Shown one piece after another: positions 1 to 2,499 of a stretch of 64,000 bases of DNA (position 1 is its first letter; each line of letters opens with the position of its first letter). Source of the DNA: Thermoanaerobaculia bacterium (GTDB lineage: Bacteria; Acidobacteriota; Thermoanaerobaculia; Multivoradales; JAIOJS01); assembly GCA_030429235.1 (NCBI GenBank), contig JAUIDB010000005.1, positions 62,001-126,000 of the forward strand, written 5' to 3'. The notes under the pieces are model-generated. The model saw nothing but the letters and a program-made list of their open reading frames with translations, was not told the DNA's origin and ran no database searches. The translations under genes and the position numbers were made by a program.

Positions 1-23
1 CCGGCGAAGTCGACGGTCGCCAT
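1..23 (-). CDS. possible start of a further gene, cut by the window edge
   Basis: An ATG on the minus strand lies 51 nt after the radical SAM stop and opens a frame (M-A-T-V-D-F-A) that leaves the window. The sequence AGGAG lies only 3 nt before it, and a second GAGGAG lies further upstream. The codons between the radical SAM stop and this ATG are also coding-like, with G or C at nearly every third position (they read S-Y-D-S-Y-E-E-I-G-P-E-E-H), but they are in the same frame as the stop. This could be a precursor peptide or the next pathway gene. Only a handful of codons are visible, so no function can be assigned. Confidence 0.3.
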
Positions 24-74
24 GTGCTCCTCGGGCCCGATCTCCTCGTAGGAGTCGTAGCTGACCCCGTCGCT

Positions 75-1181
75 CTAGCCGACGACGGGTAGCTTGGCGT
101 GTCCTGCTGCCGTCTTGCGGAGTTCGATCCGTTCCTCGGCCGCCGGGTAGAGCTGATCCGGCGCGCCGGTGGCGATCACCGCCTGGCCGGGGCAGAAGGA
201 GGTCAGATTCGCGTCACTACCGATCGCCACCAGCGACTGGCGGGCGGCTTCGTTGCCACTCCGAACCTCTTCGAGGGCGCTAGAGCCCCCACGCCAGAGC
301 TGCCGGATCGACTGGTCATGGAGGTTGCCGACCGGCCTTCGCCACTGCACGCAGGGGTAGACGTTGCCGAAGGGGTCGACGGTGAGGGAGTTGGTCCCGG
401 CGCCACAGTACCGTTTGGCGCTGGTGCCGACGGCGGCCACGACCTGGTCGCCTTCGCGGGCGGCCGGCGGCGTCGGGTTCGCGGAGAGTCCAGCTTCGAA
501 CGCTTGACGTCGCTCCTCCTGCAGGCGGAAGAGCCGCAACAGTCCTTCCTCACTGGGACGGATGTCGAGCGGCGAAGCGTCGCCATCATCCCGCGGTGTG
601 ACCTCGGGATCGAACTGAAGCGGAAGACCGAGATCATCGGTGATGGCGAACATCTCGCGGAGTTCGGTCTCGTTCCAGGCCGTGACGGTACTGTTGACCT
701 TGAGGCGGAGACCGATGCTCTGCATCTCTCTGAGGTTCGCCAAGAGGCGATCGAAGCTCCCCGGCACTCGGGTTTGCCGATCGTGCGTCTCGGCCTTGGC
801 ACCGTGCAGACTGACCTCCACCACCAGGGGATCTACCTCCTCGTAGAGACGGCGGGCCAGGGCGCCGCGCAGGGCGTGGCCGTTGCTCTTGACCCGGACT
901 GCGAAACCGAGCTCCTTGGCGTGGCGGCCGAGCTCGAAGAAGTGGGGGTGCGCCAGGGGCTCTCCGCCGGTGAGGATCAGGTGGAGCACTCCCAGTTCGG
1001 CGAGTTCTGCGAAGACCTCGTAGTAGCGCTCGCGCGAGATCGGCGTGCCGCGCAGCCCGAGGTCGTTGTAGCAGAAGAAACAATCGAGGTTGCAGCGATA
1101 GGTCAGCTCGAACATCACCGAGAAGAGGCGATTCTCCTCGCGGGTGCGCTGGATCAGATGCTGGTAGGAATTCGACGACAT
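75..1181 (-). CDS. radical SAM/SPASM-like protein, probable peptide-modifying enzyme
   Basis: 368 aa. Near the N-terminus the motif CxxxCxxC (C30, C34, C37) marks the radical SAM 4Fe-4S cluster, followed by TGGEP (71-75) for SAM binding. Further cysteines at 259, 277 and 330 resemble a reduced SPASM-type auxiliary cluster region, including the usual G-N-V-Y-P-C segment. In PqqE and anaerobic sulfatase-maturase relatives such proteins modify peptide or protein side chains. It is the second gene after the HprK-like kinase (39 nt gap, same strand), and a PqqD-like protein is encoded divergently just beyond. That context supports a peptide substrate rather than a heme or nucleotide one. The substrate itself is not evident in the window. 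Confidence 0.85.
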   Translation of the reverse strand: MSSNSYQHLIQRTREENRLFSVMFELTYRCNLDCFFCYNDLGLRGTPISRERYYEVFAELAELGVLHLILTGGEPLAHPHFFELGRHAKELGFAVRVKSNGHALRGALARRLYEEVDPLVVEVSLHGAKAETHDRQTRVPGSFDRLLANLREMQSIGLRLKVNSTVTAWNETELREMFAITDDLGLPLQFDPEVTPRDDGDASPLDIRPSEEGLLRLFRLQEERRQAFEAGLSANPTPPAAREGDQVVAAVGTSAKRYCGAGTNSLTVDPFGNVYPCVQWRRPVGNLHDQSIRQLWRGGSSALEEVRSGNEAARQSLVAIGSDANLTSFCPGQAVIATGAPDQLYPAAEERIELRKTAAGHAKLPVVG

Positions 1182-1220
1182 GGCTTTGACCTGGGACCTG
1201 TTGCACCGTGAATGAACGGG

Positions 1221-2180
1221 TCAGTCCGGCTGAGGATCCAGTATAGACCAGGGGTCTCCGTGGCGCCTGAAGGTCAGGTTCCGCACCGGAGTGGCGGCAG
1301 CGAGTCGCTCCAAGGTCTCGAGCAGGGGGTGCGATCGAAAGGGGTCTCGGCCGACGGCGGTCGCGCAGGCGGCGAGGATGCCGAGACCCTCGGCGGGCGA
1401 GCAGGGAGTCGAGGTTTCTTCGCTGCCCTGGAGAAGGCGGTGCACGGCCACCAGCGGAAACGCCCCGGGGACTCGGTGGGCCTGGCCGAAGTCTCCCGAG
1501 AAGGGCATCTGGTAGACCACGGGTTGCCCCTGTTCCCAGGTCACGGCGTTCAGATCGTCCGACAGGACCTGACGACCCGACGAGTCGCTGAGGGAGGAGA
1601 TCGTGGTCTTGCCCGCCCCCGAGCGCCCGAGGAAGAGGTGCGCTCCTCCCGAGGAGTCGAGAACACCGGCACTGTGGAGCAGGCACCCGCCGCCGGCGGC
1701 CAGCTGGTAGGCCACGATGGCTCGGAAGACGTTCTCGAGGGTCCCTGCGAACACTTCGCCCGCCGGTACATAGGTCCACAGGGCCGCCTCCAGTTCTCGG
1801 TCGCGCCAGCGCAACGCTGCCATCAGCTCGAGTCCGGCGAGGTCGACTCGTCGCTCCGCGTACCTGAGGTCGAGGGAGTACTCCCAACCGACCTCTTCGA
1901 TGGCTCGGAAGTCCGATTGCGGAACCCGGAACACTCGGAGCCGAACGACCGACCCAGCGGTGGCCTCGGGATCGGAGCAGAGGTCGCCGAAACGGTCGTG
2001 CAGAGCTTCCACCTGAGGATCGGAAAGACCCTCGACCTGGTAGGGACCGCCCAGGAAATCGAGCCTCAGGGTCGCCTCGCCCCAGCGCTCGCCGGAGAAA
2101 CGCACCGGAAAGAGGTCAGGGTTGTGCAGGAACTGCTGTGCGAAGCCGGTCGATTCGGAGGCGGAGTGCATCGCTGGCAT
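1221..2180 (-). CDS. HprK-related serine kinase-like protein
   Basis: About 319 aa from the chosen start. The C-terminal half contains a Walker A loop, GRSGAGKTT (about 185-193), preceded by LLHSAGV and followed by LSDDL (206-210). That arrangement is typical of the HPr kinase/phosphorylase C-terminal domain and its relatives found beside PqqD-like proteins. The N-terminal half is not recognised. An upstream ATG exists at 2231, but the ATG at 2180 is preferred: TATGCT lies exactly 6 nt before it, and the longer start would overlap the divergent PqqD start. In related gene sets these kinases accompany small PqqD-like chaperones and peptide-modifying enzymes. Its target is unknown. Confidence 0.75.
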   Translation of the reverse strand: MPAMHSASESTGFAQQFLHNPDLFPVRFSGERWGEATLRLDFLGGPYQVEGLSDPQVEALHDRFGDLCSDPEATAGSVVRLRVFRVPQSDFRAIEEVGWEYSLDLRYAERRVDLAGLELMAALRWRDRELEAALWTYVPAGEVFAGTLENVFRAIVAYQLAAGGGCLLHSAGVLDSSGGAHLFLGRSGAGKTTISSLSDSSGRQVLSDDLNAVTWEQGQPVVYQMPFSGDFGQAHRVPGAFPLVAVHRLLQGSEETSTPCSPAEGLGILAACATAVGRDPFRSHPLLETLERLAAATPVRNLTFRRHGDPWSILDPQPD

Positions 2181-2186
2181 CCCCCA

Positions 2187-2223
2187 AGCATATGTCGGCG
2201 GGAGAGCGGCTGCGTGGTATCTT
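2187..2223. promoter_or_regulatory. divergent leaderless promoters for the HprK-like and PqqD-like genes
   Basis: Minus strand: TATGCT at 2192-2187, then 6 nt, then the kinase ATG. Plus strand: TATCTT at 2218-2223, with TGG before it (extended -10), then 6 nt, then the PqqD ATG. Neither gene has a Shine-Dalgarno sequence in this space, so transcripts would begin at or next to the start codons. No convincing -35 boxes were seen. Confidence 0.5.
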
Positions 2224-2229
2224 CGGTCC

Positions 2230-2499
2230 ATGTCCGAGTACCGTCTCCCCAGCCACGTGCGCTATCGAGTCGTCGCCGACGAGGCCGTCGTCCTGCGGCT
2301 CACCGAGGGCAAGGTCCTGGGACTCAACTGGACCGGTACCCGCATTTTCGAGCTGTTCCACCGCGGAGCCTCGCAGCAAGAGGTCGTCGAGCAGCTGAGC
2401 CAGGAGGTGGAAGCCGAACCGGAGGAACTCGCTGCCGATATCGCCGCCTTCGCCGAGGAGCTGTTGGCGGCCGGTGTGCTGGAAGTGGCGTCGAGCTGA
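2230..2499 (+). CDS. PqqD-like peptide carrier (RiPP recognition element)
   Basis: 89 aa from ATG 2230 (M-S-E-Y-R-L-P). The protein follows the PqqD pattern: an N-terminal beta-rich part with the segment EGKVLGLNWTGTRIFELF, then a helical C-terminal half. PqqD-fold proteins bind leader peptides and present them to radical SAM enzymes. It is transcribed away from an HprK-related kinase and a radical SAM protein, so the three probably form one functional unit. An upstream in-frame ATG at 2122 would add 36 residues unlike the family, so it was rejected. No precursor peptide gene is seen between 2122 and 2579. Confidence 0.8.
   Translation: MSEYRLPSHVRYRVVADEAVVLRLTEGKVLGLNWTGTRIFELFHRGASQQEVVEQLSQEVEAEPEELAADIAAFAEELLAAGVLEVASS

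Follow-up and report, generated by a model that had tools for sequence, protein, structure and literature searches.

The window, by which we mean the whole stretch of 64,000 nucleotides analyzed here (bases 62001-126000 of contig C13, in a genome of 4.85 Mb), opens with the tail of a predicted precursor gene and with three genes for its putative recognition and modification (Table 1). A tRNA-Met gene follows the PqqD gene. The radical SAM, P-loop kinase and PqqD reading frames all lie where an earlier note on this DNA had placed them. Homologues of the kinase begin near the ATG at 2180, which is therefore a likelier start than that at 2231.

Table 1. Features at the left end of the window, with the evidence for each
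Feature	Position	Strand	Evidence
3' end of PRE2, a precursor peptide gene	1..51	+	ORF, AAGGAGG before ATG, family conservation, synonymous divergence from paralogue
Radical SAM peptide-modifying enzyme (predicted)	75..1181	-	CxxxCxxC and C259/C277/C330; Pfam Radical_SAM
HprK/PEPCK-fold kinase	1221..2180 (longest ORF from 2231)	-	H186, GxSGxGKT P-loop, AlphaFold, Foldseek
PqqD-fold RiPP recognition element (RRE)	2230..2499	+	Pfam PqqD; closest solved relative TbiB1

The precursor genes and their products

PRE2 is a plus-strand gene for 57 amino acids (L003:15878-16051, ending at window position 51) with AAGGAGG ahead of its ATG. It begins 123 bases to the left of the window, has its final 16 codons and stop inside, and is convergent with the radical SAM gene. 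The product is MTVPPPSPKKPAGAPHPRRPYEKPRLLFEEPLELFATVCNPPAKSTVAMCSSGPISS, and the portion encoded within the window is PAKSTVAMCSSGPISS, which includes the C-terminal Ser and is followed by the stop. Window bases 1-47 match at 87% a sequence 5.56 kb leftward, and both copies are the ends of plus-strand reading frames; the second gene, PRE1 (L003:10320-10490, plus strand), encodes MNTTSQPKETVRVPSRRRPYEKPRLLFEEPLELFATVCNPPAKSTVASCSSGPISS. Over the last 38 codons the two genes show 18 synonymous codon differences and a single nonsynonymous one, 16 of the 21 changes are at third positions, and the pair in a sister genome behaves likewise. These differences show purifying selection on the plus-strand frame, so that the minus-strand gene proposed in the earlier note is no more than its antisense shadow. 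The coding-like character that the note saw in the 51 nucleotides is genuine, but it belongs to PRE2 and not to a minus-strand gene starting at an ATG with AGGAG nearby. In the sister genome that frame is the antisense of the peptide alone, lacks an ATG at the proposed start and meets an early stop, and it was rejected as a precursor. The expectation of a precursor just left of the window fared similarly: a short precursor does sit at the left edge, but on the plus strand and with its 3' end within the window. Leftward extension also revealed an adjoining protease gene. This long gene is not an unrelated neighbor, as it encodes a C25 peptidase that recurs beside such precursors elsewhere, and the genes of the cluster co-occur in other genomes.

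Precursors of the family have the leader pattern [YW]xxPxh...E-h-E..A..C and the core pattern C-x(1-10)-K-x(n)-C-x(3-10)-S-COOH. In the leader, [YW]xxP is a motif of the lasso type, and basic residues stand directly ahead of it. In the present precursor it reads YEKPRL, an instance of YxxPxL, and YEKPRLLFEEPLELF is the corresponding leader and predicted RRE ligand. A short encoded precursor with a conserved leader, as expected of an RRE-dependent RiPP, is thus at hand. Exactly two Cys follow the ExxA motif in all 66 non-redundant complete precursors, and the core Lys is present in 65 of the 66. The last residue is Ser in 64 and Thr in two, as looked for in a phosphopeptide of the PadeK/ThcoK type, and Ser stays last however far the second Cys lies from the C-terminus (4 to 11 residues). 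Ser makes up 10.7% of the remaining core positions, and a binomial figure for the C-terminal Ser ignores shared ancestry and is not readable as a probability; once the precursors are grouped by a similarity of 60%, Ser is still the last residue in 31 of the 32 clusters.

Predicted enzymes of the cluster

The PqqD-fold carrier named in the earlier note is borne out by a Pfam match (PF05402, 4.2e-13) and corresponds to a discrete PqqD-fold RRE. The best solved match of its profile is TbiB1, the RRE of a lasso peptide cluster (1.8e-14), and RREs of lasso systems recognize [Y/W]xxPx[L/V/I/A/F/Y] (PMC13381572). The radical SAM enzyme matches Pfam Radical_SAM (1.8e-18) and SPASM in part. The C30/C34/C37 motif that the note had seen is confirmed, and so are extra cysteines, which we place at C259, C277 and C330; all six are conserved without exception across 79 homologues. 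The seven-Cys SPASM pattern is absent, as these three are the only cysteines outside the core motif, and we predict at most one three-Cys auxiliary site. The nearest solved structures are PqqE and SkfB. The PqqE/PqqD pair and SkfB-type maturases share with the window system the radical SAM fold and an RRE partner, whereas the enzyme described here has three auxiliary cysteines rather than seven, serves another precursor and is accompanied by a kinase.

Three residues of the kinase, H186, K208 of the P-loop (GxSGxGKT) and D225, are shared by every one of 66 kinases (numbering of the 336-residue reading frame), and a second Asp, D226, is kept in at least 90% of the sequences in alignment A3. The His-Lys-Asp-Asp motif described for the Ser kinases of lasso peptides (PMC9266682; PMC10368454) is therefore complete; the likeness to PadeK and ThcoK rests on motifs quoted in reviews. 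Profile searches with the kinase gave nothing above curated cut-offs and touched PEPCK and HprK-related models only; HprK-related kinases A and B (TIGR04352 and TIGR04355) scored 13.1 and 11.8 bits against a cut-off of 200. A confident AlphaFold model (pLDDT 93.8) returned PEPCK first (1e-6) and HprK next (2e-3) in Foldseek, with query-normalized TM-scores below 0.5. According to this model the protein shares the HprK/PEPCK P-loop fold but is close to neither. The HprK-type assignment of the earlier note holds for the P-loop and the shared fold, but the match to HprK is weak and that to PEPCK better. The presence of such a kinase does not in itself fix the phosphosite, since the HprK-like RiPP kinases BsfK and LppK act on an internal residue, Ser3 (PMC10368454; PMC13381572).

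Distribution of the gene set

The same gene set is found in the genomes of many relatives (tblastn, neighborhoods of kinase matches, with precursors recovered by pattern), and the gene-order comparison that the earlier note had suggested finds PqqD, kinase and radical SAM genes together in many genomes. The gene set, the leader motif, the invariant residues and the co-occurrence are all read directly from the sequences. Matches to the precursor profile occur in 64 of 396 genomes sampled across Acidobacteriota, a census that is somewhat biased because the profile was made from Ser-ending peptides. When the kinase is called at E <= 1e-40 in the same 396 genomes, precursor and kinase are both present in 55, the precursor only in 9, the kinase only in 10 and neither in 322. 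The odds ratio is about 200, and the Fisher p-value is only indicative as the genomes were treated as independent. A strong kinase match is present in 49 of the 50 genomes with a confident precursor. At two loci (L134 and L154) the precursor has no kinase nearby, and the kinase lies elsewhere in the genome (1.6e-116 and 3.6e-79, respectively).

A scan of the genome collection with the radical SAM alignment gave at least 80 loci, the hosts of which, among the matches listed, are Acidobacteriota, Pseudomonadota, Myxococcota and Desulfobulbus. Orthologous cassettes are found in Acidobacteriota, Gamma- and Betaproteobacteria, Myxococcota and Desulfobulbus. The phyla are intermixed in the radical SAM tree, where well-supported branches require two or more changes for Acidobacteriota and three or more for Pseudomonadota. 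Among the radical SAM loci listed, 45 are flanked by 2.5 kb or more in both directions, and these hold PqqD (43), kinase (38), precursor (42) and C25 (28) genes; as the loci were chosen by radical SAM similarity, the figures describe that clade only.

Additional genes accompany the set in some lineages. Among the loci listed, an NTP_transf_5 gene (PF14907) is present in seven Myxococcota loci and several others, an S24/SpI-like peptidase in sixteen and an ABC exporter in a few. These are the accessory genes of clusters for linear polyphosphorylated peptides and, in part, of pseudomycoidin, and they give independent support to phosphorylation of the peptide. The window's own cluster showed no gene for a transporter, for NTP_transf_5 or for a peptidase dedicated to the leader, and its genome has no PF14907 match. 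At one locus (L122, 7764-11576) kinase genes and PqqD-like stretches, two of each, lie around a single radical SAM/precursor pair.

The C25 partner, the proposed pathway and known relatives

PRE1 and PRE2 each follow a gene for a protein of 1600-1700 residues that ends in a peptidase C25 domain (PF01364, about 1e-56) and has, as judged by eye, a signal-like N-terminus. The two units of peptidase and peptide in this genome are a tandem duplication. The catalytic His and Cys are invariant, as expected of a C25 peptidase; the fold of its model is similar to those of RgpB and PorU, and PorU is closest by sequence (7e-44). The neighboring protein thus shares with PorU and the gingipains a C25 domain whose His and Cys do not vary, and it is unlike them in its hosts, Acidobacteriota and others, and in its predicted coupling to a modified peptide. 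No match to SprA, the type IX secretion marker, was found in this genome; the control gave none either, which makes the result uninformative. A third C25 gene of the same genome (G000:C58:13832-14956) has no precursor match on its contig. Gene neighborhoods mark the C25 peptidase as a conserved partner in the system.

Our preferred explanation, to which we give a probability of roughly 0.7, is an RRE-dependent radical SAM RiPP whose C-terminal Ser would be phosphorylated and whose product would act with the adjacent C25 peptidase. Each enzymatic step of this scheme, like the part given to the peptidase, is a prediction. The two short plus-strand genes would encode the RiPP precursors. The PqqD-like RRE would bind the YxxPxL leader and present the peptide to the enzymes. 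Modification of the two-Cys/Lys core would fall to the radical SAM enzyme, with a Cys thioether as the default guess, and phosphorylation of the C-terminal Ser to the HprK-fold kinase, in the manner of PadeK and ThcoK in lasso peptides of the paeninodin type. In some lineages the NTP_transf_5 enzyme may then decorate the phosphate, as PsmN does on the phosphorylated C-terminal Ser of pseudomycoidin (PMC9266682). The mature peptide may act with the secreted C25 gingipain/PorU-like peptidase as a substrate, a regulator or an attached ligand. The genes are best read as a family of RRE-dependent, probably phosphorylated radical SAM RiPPs. The gene set and the conserved precursor family favor the peptide-modifying system, apparently of RiPP type, that the earlier note had supposed; phosphorylation, which the note had put forward as a possibility, is plausible from the sequences. 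A more specific proposal, that the radical-SAM-modified peptide with its phosphorylated last residue serves a secreted gingipain-like protease as dedicated ligand (as a regulator, or as a group that a PorU-like transpeptidase attaches) and forms with it a protease-RiPP pair present in at least four phyla, is speculative and in our estimate rather unlikely.

What the peptide does with the peptidase can be read in two further ways. It may be a dedicated C25 regulator, an inhibitor or propeptide acting in trans, rather than a free natural product, and phosphorylation would then serve as switch or anchor. This reading is compatible with the biosynthetic part of our preferred explanation, and we hold it as a tentative possibility. 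It draws on the 29 pairings in which the precursor lies 17-759 bp downstream of the C25 end on the same strand, together with 11 further pairings with the C25 gene downstream of the precursor, and on the joint duplication of peptidase and peptide. The six genomes checked have one to four C25 genes each, and in the three that have a single one, this gene stands beside the precursor. A looped two-Cys peptide with a Lys fixed in 65 of 66 cores would also suit a regulator. Against it, about a third of the loci have no C25 gene in range, and S1 specificity for Lys is not legible from the alignment with gingipains.

Alternatively, the C25 enzyme may be a mere leader-removing protease that acts after export, the peptide having a separate secreted function. 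The adjacency of the two genes, the gingipain/PorU fold with its invariant His and Cys, and the basic residues just ahead of the YxxP motif are consistent with such a role. However, the N-terminus of the peptidase is signal-like whereas the modification would be cytoplasmic, an SpI-like peptidase of the type that processes the precursors of linear polyphosphorylated peptides (LPPs; PMC13381572) is present in some lineages, and duplication of a 1600-residue protein with each peptide is left unexplained. We regard leader removal as a rather unlikely sole function of the C25 enzyme.

Under the preferred explanation, two tailoring chemistries, radical SAM modification and phosphorylation of the C-terminal Ser, are predicted to be joined on one small precursor family, the product of which is tied to a gingipain/PorU-like peptidase as its usual neighbor. 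The explanation makes predictions at the level of residues (phosphorylation of the last Ser, recognition of the YxxPxL leader, and modification of the core with its two Cys and Lys), and it offers a possible role for some uncharacterized C25 proteins outside Bacteroidota.

Comparison with curated systems provides the context. The uncharacterized SynChlorMet cassette (TIGR04248-TIGR04251) is the nearest curated relative, sharing a PqqD-like protein, an HprK-like protein, a radical SAM enzyme, a YxxP precursor and an S24/SpI-like domain. Membership of the window's genes in a SynChlorMet cassette (ScmA-F) would account for the same kinds of enzymes (HprK-like ScmC, PqqD-like ScmD, radical SAM ScmE and ScmF) and for the weak profile matches. 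We nevertheless consider it very unlikely and rule it out, as the scores fall far below the curated cut-offs (ScmD, 20.5 against 100; ScmE, 71.9 against 400; ScmF, 72.4 against 400; ScmC, 29.9 against 125 in a homologue) and a real SynChlorMet cassette, in the acidobacterial genome G383, combines two radical SAM genes with a Cys-repeat precursor that ends in Gly and not in Ser. That cassette (L198, 5177-11750) also has an S24/SpI-like domain fused ahead of ScmC and an ABC exporter.

An atypical lasso peptide cluster, to which the lasso-type RRE and leader motif and the paeninodin-like kinase motif with the C-terminal Ser would point, is so improbable that we reject it: in the genomes checked the B2-type protease (PF13471) is on other contigs or missing and never on the contig of the cluster. 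A radical SAM enzyme is present instead, and an asparagine-synthetase-like cyclase was not noticed among the recurrent neighbors. The likeness to paeninodin-type clusters (PadeA/B1/K; PsmK/PsmN of pseudomycoidin) extends over the RRE, the [YW]xxP leader, the C-terminal Ser of the precursor, the HprK-like kinase with His-Lys-Asp-Asp and, in some lineages here, an NTP transferase. The window system differs from them in its radical SAM enzyme, its two-Cys/Lys core, its pairing with C25, the lack of an adjoining B2 protease and, as far as the recurrent neighbors show, the lack of a cyclase. LPPs (PMC13381572) share the RRE and the HprK-like kinase, and their accessory set of SpI-like peptidase, NTP transferase and ABC exporter occurs in some lineages of the present family. 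The LPP kinase acts on core Ser3, whereas the fixed residues of the present family are the C-terminal Ser together with Cys and Lys; the description of LPPs contains no mention of a radical SAM enzyme (PMC13381572). Among open-licence papers we found none that brings HprK and radical SAM together with a precursor peptide, an absence that is not proof, and nothing on SynChlorMet or on gingipain/C25 in Acidobacteria.

Related clusters with other peptides also occur. The present genome has a second PqqD/HprK-like/radical SAM cluster (L060, 8775-11124, contig C86), in which the C-terminal part of a 153-residue PqqD reading frame, EFPPRLVWEEGLEAVAQPGRSCGFMPGQGDQCVGFPFQ, resembles an RRE-fused precursor that does not end in Ser. 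A second kinase/radical SAM pair at L036 (14079-16488) is accompanied by a different precursor-like peptide, YEPPVVRRISLRAEEVLSVGCKLGAGPGPFGATCDAVPCNQPGS, which ends in Ser.
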